Source: Sulfurimonas sp. (GTDB taxonomy: Bacteria > Campylobacterota > Campylobacteria > Campylobacterales > Sulfurimonadaceae). From it: 35,791 bases of DNA. The translations under genes were made by a program, and so were the position numbers. Positions 16,769-22,874 of the stretch are shown piece by piece. The DNA lies in assembly GCA_028689055.1 (NCBI GenBank), contig JAQTWZ010000017.1:1-35791 (forward strand). Direction: 5' to 3'. The notes beneath the pieces are model-generated. The model saw only the letters and a program-made list of their open reading frames with translations. It ran no database searches and was not told the DNA's origin. Positions within the stretch are counted from its first letter, which is position 1. Each line of letters starts with the position of its first letter.

Positions 16769-17953
16769 TTACCCTTTTTTTGAGATGTGATGTCCAAAAA
16801 CAAGGACTTTGCCGTATCTGGCACTCCAAATGATAAAGAGAAGTAGCCACGCACTCAAAGAGATATCAAATAAAAAATCAGCTCCCCATGCAAACGCAAC
16901 ATTGAGACTCAAAAGCATCCTCAAAAGTACGACTACCTGAACAAACCAAAAGATTTTTGTAGCGATAGTATCTGCATGAGGCGTTTGTCCGGAGTGTCCC
17001 AATATAACTCTCGTCCCAAATCCTACAAGGATAGTTGTCACAAATCCTATGGCAAGAAGATGTATGCCTATAAAATAAAAATCCAGAGCGAACAAAAGCT
17101 CTAAAGTATGGGTAAACGCAGAGATGAAAAATGCTACAGGAAGCCAAAAGAGTCCTAAATGAAGCACCCAAAGAATAGCAGGAGAGCTAAAAAGAGGCAG
17201 TTTCCAGCTGATAAACTCCCGAAGCAGATAAAGCGCCAAAACCAAATTAATAAGAATCTCTATGATAGAAAAATCCAAAGAATTAACAATTGTTTTGAGA
17301 AGGAGCAGGGTAAAAACTATGGCTATAAGATTTGTACTTTTTGGCTCGTAAGAGTGAGAAAAGAAAGGAATCATTCTCTGTGCAACGCTGAAAGTCAAAA
17401 AGATGATGTAGAGGTAAAAACCTGTATTGATGGCGAGTGTTTGCACTTCAAAGCCGAGTTCAAGCAGGATAAAAAGCAAAGAAGCGATCAAACCGTAATA
17501 CTGGGCAACTAAAATCCAAAAAGAGTCCACCTTATCCTGTGCGTGCCCTGTTTTGTATATATGAGTGAGTTGTCGGACGATAAAGATATGTGAGACAAAA
17601 AGAGCTGCCATGGCAAAGAGTACAATTATATGACTGGTAAATGAACCAATAAAAAAAAGAAAAGAACCCAGAGTCTGTGCGTAAAATATATTTGTATAGA
17701 AGGTTTTGTCTATGACCTGCGTTTGGCAAAATCGTGGGAAAGTCGTAAATAAAAATCCAATAAAAAGATTTGTAAAAACACTAAAAAGAAGCGAATAAAC
17801 ATGAAAGTTCAAAGTATTTATCGTAAGTGTGACAACACCTTTATAACTCAGAGCAAAAAGAAACATCATAAACACTGCGTTTGCAAGTCCTAAAATAAAA
17901 AACGGTTGATGCGGTTGGGATAAAAAATAACTTTGTTTTTTTGTAAAATGCAT
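16769..17953 (-). CDS. nnrS: NnrS family membrane protein
   Basis: A 394-residue polytopic inner membrane protein with about twelve hydrophobic helices. Family features are visible: HQPFFILGLANAVFMMFLFAL at the start, FLFTTFPRFCQ, FSVAQRMIPFFSHS and FGTRVILGHSGQTP near the end, with several conserved His residues. NnrS proteins bind haem and copper in studied species and protect against nitric oxide and nitrosative stress. The gene is usually under NO-responsive Crp/Fnr regulators. Here a perfect FNR-type palindrome (18009-18022) lies upstream and a Crp/Fnr regulator gene is the next gene up. Two small genes follow in the operon. Confidence 0.9.
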   Translation of the reverse strand: MHFTKKQSYFLSQPHQPFFILGLANAVFMMFLFALSYKGVVTLTINTLNFHVYSLLFSVFTNLFIGFLFTTFPRFCQTQVIDKTFYTNIFYAQTLGSFLFFIGSFTSHIIVLFAMAALFVSHIFIVRQLTHIYKTGHAQDKVDSFWILVAQYYGLIASLLFILLELGFEVQTLAINTGFYLYIIFLTFSVAQRMIPFFSHSYEPKSTNLIAIVFTLLLLKTIVNSLDFSIIEILINLVLALYLLREFISWKLPLFSSPAILWVLHLGLFWLPVAFFISAFTHTLELLFALDFYFIGIHLLAIGFVTTILVGFGTRVILGHSGQTPHADTIATKIFWFVQVVVLLRMLLSLNVAFAWGADFLFDISLSAWLLLFIIWSARYGKVLVFGHHISKKG

Positions 17954-17980: not shown

Positions 17981-18022
17981 ATCTTAGTAAAATTCTTCAG
18001 AAAAAATGTTGATTTCTATCAA
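17981..18022 (-). promoter_or_regulatory. FNR/Dnr-type box and -10 element for nnrS
   Basis: TTGATTTCTATCAA at 18009-18022 is a perfect match to TTGAT-N4-ATCAA. Twenty-two bp downstream on the minus strand is TAAGAT (17986-17981), a 4-of-6 match to the -10 box. This predicts a start near 17974, placing the box at -41.5, the class II activation position of Crp/Fnr proteins. nnrS begins at 17953. The box lies between the regulator's stop and nnrS. Confidence 0.72.
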
Positions 18023-18036
18023 GAGAAGGGCATCTC

Positions 18037-18681
18037 TTAATCAGTAAGGGCATGGAGTCCTTCTTTGTTTTTGATTTTATAGTTGTTGTTGAGGTCTTTT
18101 TCCAAAAGATCGAGTTTGAGGAGTTTTTGAAAGACTCTTGAGAGTGTCTCGGGTGTCATGTGGAGATGTTCTGCGAGTTGATAGTTTTTATAATCAACAA
18201 GTGCGGCACCGTTCGTATCATGAATAAACTTCGCAAGACGCGCGGTAGAGTCAAGGACAACATTGAGTGCGATGACGGATTCGAGATAACGTATCTTTTT
18301 TGAAAGGGATTTGAAAAAGACAAAAGCAACATCAGGATCACTTAAAAATTCATGTTTAAAACGCTCAAAATCTATCTGAATCACTTCCCCGTCTGTTTCA
18401 AAAACAGCAGAAGCAGGATAAGGCAGACCTTCAAGAACAGCCATCTCTGCGATGAGTGACATAGGTCGAAAGCGGTGCATAACGACTTCATTGTTTTTTG
18501 GGTCTGTTTTGTAAACTTTTAAGATTCCTTCTATAAGGAGCGTCAACGCTTTTGGCTGCTCTTTTTCATAAAAAAGAATAGTACCTTTTGACATTTTTCG
18601 GTGCGTTGCAAAAGAGTGTATTCTTGCTAGTCGCTCCTCGGAAAGATTGTCAAAAAAATAAAAATGTCTTAAATCATGCAC
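18037..18681 (-). CDS. Crp/Fnr-family transcriptional regulator, cysteine-free (Dnr/NnrR-like?)
   Basis: From a GTG at 18681 the protein has 215 residues: a cyclic-nucleotide-type beta-roll (about residues 10-110, GTILFYEKEQPKALTLLIEGILKVYK), a dimerisation helix, and a C-terminal HTH (about 160-205). The recognition helix TPETLSRVFQKL holds E-x-x-S-R, the residues that read TTGA half-sites in Fnr, and two such sites flank the gene. It has no cysteine, so it cannot hold an Fnr-type Fe-S cluster; an NO- or haem-sensing Dnr/NnrR role is likelier, given nnrS next door. The frame stays open to a TTG at 18789, but AAAGG lies 7 nt before the GTG and nothing comparable precedes the TTG. It is probably autoregulated. 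Confidence 0.88.
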   Translation of the reverse strand: MHDLRHFYFFDNLSEERLARIHSFATHRKMSKGTILFYEKEQPKALTLLIEGILKVYKTDPKNNEVVMHRFRPMSLIAEMAVLEGLPYPASAVFETDGEVIQIDFERFKHEFLSDPDVAFVFFKSLSKKIRYLESVIALNVVLDSTARLAKFIHDTNGAALVDYKNYQLAEHLHMTPETLSRVFQKLLKLDLLEKDLNNNYKIKNKEGLHALTD

Positions 18682-18840
18682 ACAATAACCTTTGAGTAAA
18701 ATTTTTCTTGACCAAACAGCAGAACAATGCTTTGAATCAACAAGTAAAAAGCTTAAGGAGGCTGTTACTTTATACTGCTGCTTGGGCAAAATGCCTACGA
18801 ATTAGGCAGAGTTGCATTTTATTTTGAGTTGTTGATTATA
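18682..18840 (-). promoter_or_regulatory. -10 box and long structured leader of the Crp/Fnr gene
   Basis: A perfect TATAAT at 18840-18835 on the minus strand predicts a start near 18828, leaving a leader of about 147 nt before the GTG at 18681. The leader holds a 6-bp inverted repeat, TGCCTA (18792-18797) and TAGGCA (18803-18808), with a 5-nt loop. The FNR-type box at 18863-18876 would be at -41.5 of this promoter. Confidence 0.55.
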
Positions 18841-18862
18841 TAGGATAAGCATCTGAGTCTCC

Positions 18863-18904
18863 TTGATTTATGTCAAATGCAGAGAGAAGCGTTTGAGATA
18901 GTAT
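18863..18904. promoter_or_regulatory. FNR/Dnr-type box centred between two divergent promoters
   Basis: TTGATTTATGTCAA at 18863-18876 matches TTGA-N6-TCAA perfectly and TTGAT-N4-ATCAA with one mismatch. The plus-strand -10 candidate TAGTAT (18899-18904) is 22 bp to the right; the minus-strand -10 TATAAT (18840-18835) is 22 bp to the left. The site is thus at -41.5 for both the trpD2/nrdD operon and the Crp/Fnr gene itself. Confidence 0.72.
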
Positions 18905-18925
18905 AAGAAAAAAAAGGCTCATGAG

Positions 18926-19825
18926 ATGGATTTTCATAAATATATACATGCTGTAGGTACGGGAGTCAAGGGAAATAGGGATTTGAGTTTTGAAGAAGCT
19001 AAAGATGCGATGCAGCAGATTTTAGATCAAACTGTTTATCCTGAACAGATTGCTGCGTTTTTGCTCGGTTGGAGGCTCAAGCCTGAAACGACGGAAGAGT
19101 TTCGCGGAGCGCTGAGTGCGTGTGACGCTTCTATCACACCTCACAAGATTGAAAATTCTATCGAACTTGGATATCCCTTTGATGGCAAAGCGAACAATCC
19201 TTATATCTTTCCTCTTGTCGCACAGGTGCTCAAAGATTTTTCTCTGGATTTGGTGCTCATGGGAGATGACCTGTAGCCTGCAAAAGGCGGTATCACAACA
19301 AAAGATATTTGTACAAATATGGCTCTGAGTGAAAATTGTCATTTTTTTGACCGTAAGGATTATTCTCAAAAGCTGCATAATCTCACTGAAATACGAATGC
19401 GTTTGGGACTTCGTACAGGTTTCAATACCATCGAAAAGCTACCGCATTTAGCAGGCAGTGAATATGCGATTACGGGAGTATTTCACAAGCCTTATGTCAA
19501 AAAATATATCGAAACTTTTGCCCATAGGTATAAAAGATTTGCGCTGCTTCAAGGCAACGAAGGAACACCGGAGCTTTTTAGCAAAGGAAGAGTTTGGATT
19601 ACCGATGGAGAAAATACACAAGAGTATATCATCGATCCACAATACTATGGTATCGACTACCAAAAATCTTGGGAGAGTATCACAAGAGAAGAATCACTCC
19701 AACAGTTGCAAAACCCTTCAAGTGAGTATCTCAAACTTGCAAAACTCAATGCCGCTATCTATCTTTTTGTCGCACAAAAAGCGCAAAGTATTGATACTGC
19801 GTTTGAGATGATAAGTAGCTCATGA
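18926..19825 (+). pseudogene. TrpD2-like glycosyltransferase-family gene interrupted by one in-frame TAG
   Basis: Two consecutive segments in the same frame (18926-19276 and 19277-19825) form one 299-codon gene apart from a TAG at 19274-19276. The join reads GDDL-stop-PAKGGITTKDI; the family normally has Q-P-A-x-x-G-x-TTKDI here, so a CAG-to-TAG change explains the break. The product resembles TrpD2/YbiB, a relative of anthranilate phosphoribosyltransferase that binds nucleic acid: EEAKDAMQQILDQTVYPEQIAAFLLGWRLKPET, FDGKANNPYIFPLVAQVL, LRTGFNTIEKLPHL, GNEGTPEL. No other damage is seen, so the lesion is recent, polymorphic, a sequencing error or suppressed. It is the first gene after the FNR-box promoter, with AAGG before the ATG; the second half has no ribosome binding site of its own. 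Confidence 0.85.
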
Positions 19826-19883
19826 AGAAGATTTCGTGACACAACTGTGACATCAATCATTAGTGCTCTTTAACGCTCATTGC

Positions 19884-19907
19884 TATAAACTACCCAAATA
19901 TTTGGAG
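19884..19907 (+). promoter_or_regulatory. Possible internal -10 box and ribosome binding site deciding the nrdD start
   Basis: TATAAA at 19884-19889 could serve as a -10 box with a start near 19896. GGAG at 19904-19907 lies 6 nt before the ATG at 19914, which makes that codon preferable to the adjacent ATG at 19908 and to the longer frame from 19863. Two GTGACA direct repeats lie just after the trpD2 stop codon; their role is unknown. Confidence 0.4.
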
Positions 19908-19913
19908 ATGACT

Positions 19914-22022
19914 ATGATAGAAAATGTTTTAAAACGCGACGGCAGACACACAGAGTTTATGGCTTTTAAAATCGAAGATGCGATCAAAAAAGCATTTGCA
20001 AGTGAACATATTACTTATGAGAGTTCGGTGTTTTTTAATGTGCTTCAAATCCTGCGTACCAAAAGGGTTGTAGCTGTTGAAGATATTCAAGATTTGATAG
20101 AAAAAGAACTCTATAAAGCAAGATATTTTGAAGTGATGCGCTCTTTTATGCTCTATCGCCATATGCACAAGATGCAGCGCGACAATCTGCTTGATGAAGA
20201 TACTACTTATATAAACTCAACGCAGACTATAGAAGAGTATATCAGCGGAAGTGACTGGAGAATCAAAGCAAACTCCAACACAGGCTACTCAAACGTAGGT
20301 CTTGTCAACAATACCGCAGGCAAAGTTATCGCAAACTACTGGCTTGATAAGATTTACTCCAAAGAAGAGGGTTATGCCCATAGAAACGGGGATTATCATA
20401 TTCATGATTTGGATTGTCTCACGGGATATTGCGCCGGATGGAGTCTTCGTGTCCTTTTGGATGAGGGTTTCAACGGAGCGCGTGGCAGAGTCGAGAGTGA
20501 TGCACCGAAACATTTTCGTGAAGCGCTTGGACAGATGGCAAACTTTTTGGGAATACTGCAGAGTGAGTGGGCGGGAGCGCAGGCTTTTTCCTCTTTTGAC
20601 ACCTATCTTGCACCCTATGTTTTTGCCGATAGACTCTCTTATAAAGAGATAAAAAAAGCTATCAGAAGTTTTATCTACAATCTCAATGTACCTGCACGCT
20701 GGGGGCAGTCTCCTTTTACCAATATCACGATTGACTGGAGTGTACCAAGCGATTTGAAGGATCAGATTCCTACAAGAAAACAGCGACATCTTTTGTCAGA
20801 GAGATTTGATGGAGAACTTGTAGCACTTGCACATGAGCGGGGTTGTGCGCGACTTGAAGATATGACTTATAAACATTTTCAGCCGGAGATGAACCAGATA
20901 AATAGGGCTTATTATGAGATTATGACGCAGGGAGATAAGACGGGACAGCCTTTTACTTTTCCTATTCCTACGGTCAATATCACGGAGGATTTTGATTGGT
21001 ATGGAGAAAATACGGATGTTTTGTTTGAAAACACGGCAAAAGTCGGCTCTTCTTATTTTCAAAACTTTATTGGCAGTCAGTATAAACGCGATACAAATGG
21101 AGAGCTAATCGCCAACGATGAAGCCTATAAACCCGGTCATGTAAGAAGTATGTGCTGTAGGTTGCAGCTAGATCTTCGTGAACTGCTCAAACGCGGCGGC
21201 GGACTTTTTGGAAGTGCGGAGATGACGGGAAGTATAGGGGTTGTCACACTCAATATGGCAAGAATAGGTTTCTTGCACAAAGCAGACAAAGCCGCGCTCA
21301 TGGAGAAAATCGATCAGCTCATGGACTTTGCAAAATCTACTCTGGAGAAAAAAAGAGTTTTTATCCAAGAGATGTACGACAGAGGACTTTTTCCTTATAC
21401 CAAAAGATATCTGCCGGGATTTAGAAACCACTTCTCAACTATCGGTGTCAACGGTATCAACGAGATGATACGCAATTTTAGCGGTGATACTTATGATATC
21501 AGTACGCCTGAGGGGATTGCGTTTGCCATGGAGATACTTGATTATATGAGAGAGAGGATGATTGCCTATCAAGAAGAGACCGGAAACCTCTATAATCTTG
21601 AAGCAACACCGGCAGAGGGCACGACATACAGATTCGCAAAAGAGGACAAAAAAAGATATGGAAGCTCTATCATACAAGCAGGTATGGAGGCAAATATCTA
21701 CTATACAAACTCTTCTCAGATTCCCGTCGGTTTGACTGATGATCCTTTTGAAGCGCTCGGACTTCAAGATGAGCTCCAGTGTAAATATACGGGAGGAACA
21801 GTTTTGCACCTTTATATGCAAGAGAAAGTGAGCTCAGTAGAAGCGTGTAGAAAACTTGTCAAAAATGTGATTTCCAACTATAAGCTTCCCTATATCACAG
21901 TCACACCTCTCTTTAGTGTATGCCCAAAACACGGCTATATATCGGGAGAACATGAGTTTTGTCCACGCTGTGATGAAGAGTTGGTGATGGAATATGAGAG
22001 TCTCAAGCAAGAAGTTTCATAG
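19914..22022 (+). CDS. nrdD: Anaerobic ribonucleoside-triphosphate reductase NrdD, lacking its glycyl-radical C-terminus
   Basis: Class III reductase catalytic chain, making dNTPs without oxygen. From ATG 19914 it has 702 residues: an N-terminal ATP-cone (MIENVLKRDGRHTEF, KIEDAIKKAF), then the 10-stranded barrel with YHIHDLDCLTGYCAGWSLR, FTNITIDW, MCCRLQLDLRELLKRGGGLFGSAEMTGSIGVVTLNM and GTTYRFAKEDKKRYG. It ends with the zinc motif FSVCPKHGYISGEHEFCPRC followed by about 16 acidic/helical residues and TAG. The glycyl-radical segment (RV-x-GY-x-RPV), which normally follows in the same chain, is absent here and is encoded by the next gene at 22058-22210. The sets of barrel motifs are intact, so activity would need the two parts to associate. 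Confidence 0.95.
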   Translation: MIENVLKRDGRHTEFMAFKIEDAIKKAFASEHITYESSVFFNVLQILRTKRVVAVEDIQDLIEKELYKARYFEVMRSFMLYRHMHKMQRDNLLDEDTTYINSTQTIEEYISGSDWRIKANSNTGYSNVGLVNNTAGKVIANYWLDKIYSKEEGYAHRNGDYHIHDLDCLTGYCAGWSLRVLLDEGFNGARGRVESDAPKHFREALGQMANFLGILQSEWAGAQAFSSFDTYLAPYVFADRLSYKEIKKAIRSFIYNLNVPARWGQSPFTNITIDWSVPSDLKDQIPTRKQRHLLSERFDGELVALAHERGCARLEDMTYKHFQPEMNQINRAYYEIMTQGDKTGQPFTFPIPTVNITEDFDWYGENTDVLFENTAKVGSSYFQNFIGSQYKRDTNGELIANDEAYKPGHVRSMCCRLQLDLRELLKRGGGLFGSAEMTGSIGVVTLNMARIGFLHKADKAALMEKIDQLMDFAKSTLEKKRVFIQEMYDRGLFPYTKRYLPGFRNHFSTIGVNGINEMIRNFSGDTYDISTPEGIAFAMEILDYMRERMIAYQEETGNLYNLEATPAEGTTYRFAKEDKKRYGSSIIQAGMEANIYYTNSSQIPVGLTDDPFEALGLQDELQCKYTGGTVLHLYMQEKVSSVEACRKLVKNVISNYKLPYITVTPLFSVCPKHGYISGEHEFCPRCDEELVMEYESLKQEVS

Positions 22023-22057: not shown

Positions 22058-22210
22058 ATGTGCAAAGAAGAGATATTGGAAATAATGCAGGCAAAAAGAA
22101 AAAGATGTACTGTATATACACGAGTAATGGGTTATCACAGACCCGTAGAGAGTTTTAATCTAGGTAAAGTCGGTGAGCATAAAGAAAGAAAGCAGTTTGT
22201 CCAACGCTAA
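22058..22210 (+). CDS. Separate 50-residue glycyl-radical peptide of the split NrdD
   Basis: A 50-residue protein: MCKEEILEIMQAKRKRC, then TVYTRVMGYHRPVESFNLGK and VGEHKERKQFVQR. RVMGYHRPV with the following NLGK-x-x-E-x-KERK is the C-terminal glycyl-radical motif of NrdD; Gly25 is the expected radical site. A strong AGGAG (22048-22052) lies 5 nt before the ATG, so it is translated on its own. The frame is -1 to nrdD and open from 21998, but no slippery heptamer is seen near the nrdD stop. The first 16 residues, like the last 16 of the large chain, look like added helical linker and could dock the parts. It overlaps nrdG by 38 bp. Function is inferred from the motif and operon position. Confidence 0.88.
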   Translation: MCKEEILEIMQAKRKRCTVYTRVMGYHRPVESFNLGKVGEHKERKQFVQR

Positions 22211-22874
22211 AATCGTTTATGATATAACGAAGTTTACGCATCTTGATTATCCAAATCATCTTGCGTGTATCGTTTGGTTCGCGGGGTGTAATATGCGTTG
22301 CGGGTATTGTTACAATGCAGATATAGTGCTTGCAATAAATGGACATTACACACTTTTTGATGTACTCGTATATCTCAAAACGCGGGTCGGTTTACTTGAT
22401 GCTGTTGTGCTTTCAGGCGGAGAAGCCTGCGCACATGAGCTGCTTGCGTTTTGTAGAGAGATACGAGCTTTGGGATTTAAAATCAAGCTTGATACAAACG
22501 GTACTTACTTTGAAAATCTCTACGTTTTGTGCGAAGCAAAACTGCTAGACTATGTCGCTCTTGACTATAAAGCACCCAAAAACAAGTTCAAAGCGATAAC
22601 ACATTCAGGCAGATTTGAAGCGTTTTCAAAGAGTTTGGACTATCTTCTACAAAGTGGGATGGCGTTTGAAGTACGAACGACTGTACATGGTGATTTGTTG
22701 GATGAAAATGACATCAATCTTATCGTTGATGACTTGATTTTGCGAGGTTATGACAAAACATATTATCTACAGCCTTTTCTTGATACGGATACTACTCTGG
22801 GTGATATGAAACGCAACACAAAAAAACTCGAAAGAGCTTTGTTATCGGAAAAACTGGAGATAGTTATACGATAG
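22173..22874 (+). CDS. nrdG: NrdG-like radical-SAM activase of the anaerobic ribonucleotide reductase
   Basis: NrdG uses SAM and a 4Fe-4S cluster to make the glycyl radical on NrdD. The 233-residue protein has YDITKFTHLDYPNHLACIVW followed by the cluster motif FAGCNMRCGYC (Cys39, 43, 46), the SAM-binding LSGGEA, and LDTNGTYF. Its length agrees with the longer NrdG group rather than the 154-residue E. coli type. The first in-frame start is GTG 22173 (AGGT upstream), inside the glycyl-radical peptide gene; a TTG at 22197 is an alternative. Here it would have to act on a peptide made separately from the reductase. Confidence 0.9.
   Translation: MSIKKESSLSNAKIVYDITKFTHLDYPNHLACIVWFAGCNMRCGYCYNADIVLAINGHYTLFDVLVYLKTRVGLLDAVVLSGGEACAHELLAFCREIRALGFKIKLDTNGTYFENLYVLCEAKLLDYVALDYKAPKNKFKAITHSGRFEAFSKSLDYLLQSGMAFEVRTTVHGDLLDENDINLIVDDLILRGYDKTYYLQPFLDTDTTLGDMKRNTKKLERALLSEKLEIVIR

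Follow-up and report, generated by a model that had tools for sequence, protein, structure and literature searches.

El-Robh and Busby (2002) reportedly provided the model study of a single CRP site controlling divergent promoters in Escherichia coli. Eleven cases of one CRP site serving divergent promoters are documented in that species (PMC3105977), where FNR sites cluster at -41.5 and 19 of the 23 activated FNR promoters have class II spacing (PMC3688515). In the related campylobacterote Nitrosophilus labii, exact TTGA-N6-TCAA boxes start 48-49 nt upstream of predicted starts (PMC11539149). How free-living Campylobacterota regulate their respiration is little understood, and according to a review they encode no FNR orthologue (PMC6682613). 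FNR-controlled small RNAs include FnrS and NarS, the latter from the narK 3' end (PMC8139620), and NmsR RNAs carry anti-Shine-Dalgarno loops (PMC5362039).

The locus described here lies in a window (the whole stretch of DNA analysed, 35,791 nucleotides), which is contig 23 of a Sulfurimonas-like genome (G000). It resembles the E. coli single CRP site in having one Crp/Fnr-family site between divergent promoters, but differs in its symmetric class II spacing, its Dnr/Nss-type system, its host phylum (Campylobacterota) and its apparent origin by fusion of two boxes. With the class II FNR/Nss promoters of E. coli and N. labii it shares TTGA-N6-TCAA at -41.5 and denitrification-type targets, whereas the regulon here also has trpD2-nrdD and a structured RNA. 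The shared site alone is a further case of known single-site divergent control; what would be new is the RNA and the probable two-box origin. The spot ties a denitrification-type regulator and the synthesis of DNA building blocks to a probable small regulatory RNA.

Geometry of the shared box

The sequence-only reading had placed one FNR-type box between two divergent promoters, with a -10 candidate 22 bp away on each side. The coordinates of the three elements and both distances proved exact, and the features of the region are as follows (plus and minus denote strands):

18863..18876, no strand assigned: FNR/Dnr-type box TTGATTTATGTCAA, common to the two divergent promoters and homologous to box 1 of the relative L046
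18835..18840, minus: TATAAT (ATTATA on the plus strand), the -10 of the promoter for RNA-crp (leftward), at 22 bp from the box; predicted start near 18828
18899..18904, plus: TAGTAT, the -10 of the promoter for trpD2-nrdD (rightward), likewise at 22 bp from the box; predicted start near 18911
18037..18681, minus: Crp/Fnr-family regulator gene (crp), start GTG 18681, the start codon position being conserved in relatives
16769..17953, minus: nnrS (PF05940), beyond crp
18009..18022, no strand assigned: second box TTGATTTCTATCAA, a perfect box, for nnrS
17981..17986, minus: -10 TAAGAT of nnrS, 22 bp from its own box
18926..19825, plus: trpD2-like gene, with an in-frame TAG at 19274-19276
19863..22022 (ORF limits), plus: nrdD, anaerobic ribonucleoside-triphosphate reductase
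22173..22874, plus: nrdG-type (NrdG2-type) activating enzyme gene (TIGR02495 above cut-off)

To the right of the nrdG-type gene lies a nitrite/sulfite-reductase-like gene. The motif TTGA-N6-TCAA occurs seven times in the window against 2.1 expected, and only the copies at 18863-18876 and 18009-18022 are intergenic. The shared box has the palindrome of class II FNR/Dnr-type sites and, on both sides, their 22 bp to the -10 (centre -41.5); as in single-site divergent control, one site occupies the activating position for both promoters. A sigma-70 scan found no -35/-10 pair at the leftward or the rightward promoter of this box, which is uninformative because class II sites are expected to lack one. 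TAGTAT agrees with TATAAT at four of six positions and is a weak -10.

The 22-bp spacing is a genome-wide rule. TTGAT-N4-ATCAA occurs at 19 sites in the source genome, against one for the reversed control. Genome-wide, 38 TTGAY-N4-RTCAA boxes were examined, 15 of them intergenic (30 flanks) and the remainder inside ORFs (46 flanks). TANNNT stands at exactly 22 bp in 13 of the 30 intergenic flanks (background 4%, P ~5e-11), at any other distance in at most 3 of these 30, and at 22 bp in 1 of the 46 flanks of boxes within ORFs. The genes adjoining intergenic boxes include napA and nnrS and, judged by eye from sequence, nosZ, heme d1/siroheme and cytochrome genes. The rule makes the Crp/Fnr regulon readable from sequence and places anaerobic dNTP synthesis within it.

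Among the 15 intergenic boxes of the genome, only the window box has TANNNT at 22 bp on both sides, and chance alone would give about 0.5 two-sided boxes (12 one-sided x 0.04). Taken alone, the second side could therefore be a coincidence and needs independent support, the conservation of both spacings in relatives being decisive. This expectation, together with the poor quality of TAGTAT as a -10, would fit a box that serves one direction only, either RNA-crp or trpD2, the other -10 being a chance TANNNT. Such an arrangement is quite improbable in our judgement, given that relatives retain, for either side, a box of its own at precisely 22 bp, as described below.

The box is probably a class II activator site for a Crp/Fnr activator of the Dnr/Nss kind, serving two divergent promoters, with trpD2-nrdD-nrdG to the right and the RNA followed by crp to the left. 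Most likely, a Dnr/Nss-type activator lacking Fe-S cysteines would bind the box and touch RNA polymerase at either promoter. Rightward it would drive trpD2-nrdD-nrdG and hence anaerobic dNTP synthesis; leftward, the transcript would start with a two-hairpin RNA and continue into crp, with positive autoregulation if the crp product binds. We infer the identity of the activator, activation rather than repression and the transcription starts from sequence. The explanation draws on the 22-bp rule, the two boxes of L046 and their 28-bp gap, the boxes of L093-L096, the nearest crp orthologues (5/5), the promoters of the RNA copies (26/27), the stem covariation and the N. labii boxes (PMC11539149). 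Our confidence is lowered by the weak TAGTAT, the few two-sided cases, the boxless state of most relatives with divergent crp and trpD2, and the three possible binders. The earlier placing of the box at -41.5 on both sides is borne out by the 22-bp geometry, the genome-wide rule and the relatives, and class II control in both directions appears well supported.

The same geometry bears on a second alternative, in which the box is a repressor site or a competitive switch, polymerase at one promoter excluding the other so that one direction is transcribed at a time. The predicted starts are ~83 bp apart, and either polymerase would need DNA covered by the other. However, class II spacing on both sides is an activating geometry (19/23 activated E. 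coli FNR promoters, PMC3688515), and CRP is known to control divergent promoters from one site (PMC3105977). Repression or competition is unlikely, if less so than service of one direction only, and activation at either promoter is preferred, both perhaps firing together.

As to the protein that would act at the box, the crp product has Crp/Fnr domains and an FNR-type recognition helix (E..SR), as expected of the DNR/Nss type, and no cysteine is encoded from GTG 18681 onward, that is, no 4Fe-4S ligands as in oxygen-sensing FNR proper. It resembles DNR of Pseudomonas aeruginosa (PDB 3dkw) in its Crp/Fnr fold (E = 8.5e-7), box type and nnrS neighbourhood; sequence identity is low, and the nnrS neighbourhood hints at a response to NO, nitrate or N2O. 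The direct autoregulation that had been proposed did not find support in that form. Three paralogues in the window genome have the same recognition-helix sequence, PETLSR, and could bind the box, so positive autoregulation by the crp product is likely rather than certain.

On the right side, the proposed control of the trpD2/nrdD operon gains support from the box at 22 bp in relatives, with the qualification that trpD2 has an in-frame TAG in the assembly; the nrdD frame downstream is open. At this TAG (19274-19276) the translation reads GDDL*PAKGG; the aligned codon of L046 is CAA, and almost every homologue has an open frame. Either a mutation has recently created the stop or the assembly is wrong at this place.

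Boxes in relatives and the origin of the shared site

The nearest named relative of the window genome, Sulfurimonas sp. GWF2_37_8 (L046), has an identical gene order and two boxes, 28 bp apart. On the crp side, TTGACATATGTCAA lies 22 bp from TATAAT; on the trpD2 side, TTAATCTATATCAA lies 22 bp from TAACAT. The intergenic distance in L046 is 35 bp longer than in the window, and between the crp-side box and the trpD2 -10 the two sequences differ in length by exactly 28 bp. In four near relatives whose trpD2 does not adjoin crp (L093-L096), TTAACAAATGTCAA is found 22 bp from TAGTAT, TAGTAT, TATCAT or TATTAT. Upstream of the nearest crp orthologues, a box 22 bp from TATAAT is present in five of five, with its start at -195, -196, -258, -503 and -514 relative to the crp start codon. 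A cytochrome c553 gene lies between box and crp in the two orthologues with the most distant boxes.

Conservation of the 22-bp spacing in related genomes had been proposed as a check, and both spacings are kept, in L046, in L093-L096 and in the five nearest crp orthologues. What the relatives keep is not a single shared box, however: the nearest one has two. Box loss in relatives with the same gene order had been named as evidence against the model, and most relatives of the wider family with divergent crp and trpD2 do lack such a box upstream of crp; nor do crp orthologues of at most 72% identity have a box at the 22-bp spacing. The exact gene order with boxes occurs in only two genomes, and the two-sided arrangement thus rests on few cases.

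The trpD2-side box of L046 (TTAAT...) is similar to the trpD2 boxes of other relatives (TTAAC...), so the single box of the window is best read as a derived, recent state, with polarity taken from few genomes. Most likely, a deletion of 28 bp between two ancestral boxes gave rise to the shared site and kept the register to both -10s. Such a change from two boxes to one would be a clear example of a shared divergent control site arising in one step.

Other arrangements occur elsewhere among the relatives. In L037, L041, L043, L044 and L045, crp is divergent from another gene and one box is shared, 22 bp from the -10 of the partner and 29 bp (28 in L045) from the TATAAT of crp. This asymmetric form of the shared site is consistent across the five. 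In the boxless relatives L020-L030, the stretch immediately before crp retains a TTAA-N7-TTAAGC-N10-TATATT-like motif, which may be an older promoter carrying the palindrome of another regulator.

The conserved hairpin RNA in the crp leader

The leftward promoter had been assigned to the Crp/Fnr gene. Judged from sequence, it would indeed control the crp transcript, but it sits ~147 nt above the crp start and an RNA element would be transcribed first. This leader of ~147 nt folds as a small hairpin and a long hairpin:

18706-18808, minus: RNA element of two hairpins, in the crp leader
18792..18808, minus: P0, small GC hairpin, first on the 5' side of the element, with a comparable hairpin directly before P1 in most other copies
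18706..18791, minus: P1, long conserved hairpin, with covariance model matches and covariation
18753..18761, minus: anti-Shine-Dalgarno loop of P1, CCUCCUUAA (CCUCCUU), with C(U/C)CCU in 20/20 aligned copies
18729..18738, minus: GAUUCAAAGC, second loop, with complementarity to the leader of ccoN

The leader in the window also contains a short ORF (ATG CAA CTC ...), which was rejected because it is not conserved, L046 reading ACG.

Covariance model searches, the first with a model of four sequences and thin covariation, found the element in ~25 Sulfurimonadaceae genomes of five genera and in none of the other families sampled from the order. The weak matches L160, L163, L181 and L188, without element or box, were left out. 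Rfam gave no match at gathering scores, only sub-threshold ones, and the element is apparently an unlisted family. Pairing in the 16-bp stem reaches 93.8% in an alignment of 20 sequences, and at nine pairs both partners vary. The covariation score is 0.538; shuffles give 0.218 and slid versions no more than 0.169. These counts lean towards the structure, since the alignment was hand-padded to keep the arms opposite each other and the structure was drawn from the same sequences. Five copies folded singly gave z from -4.3 to -8.1. Long inverted repeats covary in DNA too and the opposite strand also scores, as would be expected of a DNA element, either a repeat or a protein-binding palindrome. 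The opposite-strand scores are much lower, however; where pairs 9 and 11 are G-U on the transcribed strand, the opposite one would have mismatches; and each genome has one or two copies, downstream of the same kind of promoter; a DNA element is accordingly very unlikely in our estimation, and the hairpins are better taken as RNA.

A box with TANNNT exactly 22 bp away lies upstream on the same strand in 26 of the 27 credible RNA copies. These 26 boxes are TTGA-N6-TCAA, one with a single mismatch, and the 27th copy has CACAAT at the -10 position. Among the six matches not used for the last covariance model, five have a promoter of this kind, and the sixth, the boxless L188, was set aside. In most genomes the RNA lies downstream of box promoters without crp, so the "crp promoter" is to be read as the promoter of a conserved RNA, which crp follows only in the nearest clade.

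The element is probably a Crp/Fnr-activated small RNA, having the FNR-type promoter and the conserved structure of FNR-controlled small RNAs; no T-run, as in an intrinsic terminator, follows P1 in the copies inspected. Its FNR-type promoter, its stand-alone or 3'-end position and its anti-Shine-Dalgarno sequence recall FnrS, NarS and NmsR. It differs from them in sequence, structure, phylum and the lack of an Rfam match, its transcript and targets being predictions.

Most copies come directly after a cytochrome c553 gene, and the others stand alone; the distance from box to RNA is ~384-406 nt with this gene between and 76-149 nt without it. The RNA could be a cis element, either a stabiliser or processing site at the 3' end of the cytochrome c553 mRNA or a leader holding down translation of the next gene. 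The prevailing position 3' of the cytochrome gene, the AGGAG-type ribosome-binding site of a gene close behind some copies, and the missing T-run, which leaves no clear terminator, would all suit this alternative. Yet copies in L161, L162, L165, L173 and L187 stand alone 76 nt from their own box without a cytochrome gene, the genes 3' of the RNA vary (by eye crp, napA-like, TonB-receptor-like or moaA-like, or none on that strand), and the CCUCCUU loop is retained. A cis element is a serious possibility, falling somewhat short of an even chance. P0 as the terminator of the cytochrome gene was rejected as a general reading, as stand-alone copies have P0 too and most are without a T-run.

Candidate targets and copy number of the RNA

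If the element acts as a small RNA, a regulatory role can be predicted from complementarity to its loops. The window genome contains TTAAGGAGG-N3-10-ATG twice, and at one of these places it forms the ribosome-binding site of a gene identified as ccoN (TIGR00780 above cut-off). In the ccoN leader GCTTTGAATCTTTAAGGAGGCT (G000:C60:24947-24964, L190), the ribosome-binding site and the adjoining ten bases together complement the two RNA loops in tandem. The duplex energy is reached by 29 of 2,000 leader shuffles in which the Shine-Dalgarno part was kept and by 3 of 2,000 shuffles of the RNA flanks, and a second complement of at least 10 nt arises in 9 of 5,000 shuffles. In another genome (G051), the leader of ccoG (TIGR02745 above cut-off) comes second among 3,726 candidates and no ccoN was found, both in the 2.0 of 2.36 Mb covered. 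The ccoN and ccoG matches were found post hoc, in one genome each, and are leads only; the tandem match weakly suggests the ccoN leader as a candidate target.

A wider proposal, which we regard as tentative and rather doubtful, is that during denitrification class II Crp/Fnr sites would switch on an undescribed small-RNA family of Sulfurimonadaceae, which would use CCUCCUU and the second loop to block translation of oxygen-respiration genes (ccoN/ccoG). In the window lineage the RNA would have become joined to the mRNA of the regulator, back to back with the anaerobic ribonucleotide reductase through a single site. The RNA family is directly testable. Two genomes have two RNA copies each, G108 (L165, L182) and G120 (L172, L187); in each, one copy immediately follows a promoter of its own and the other follows the cytochrome c553 gene.
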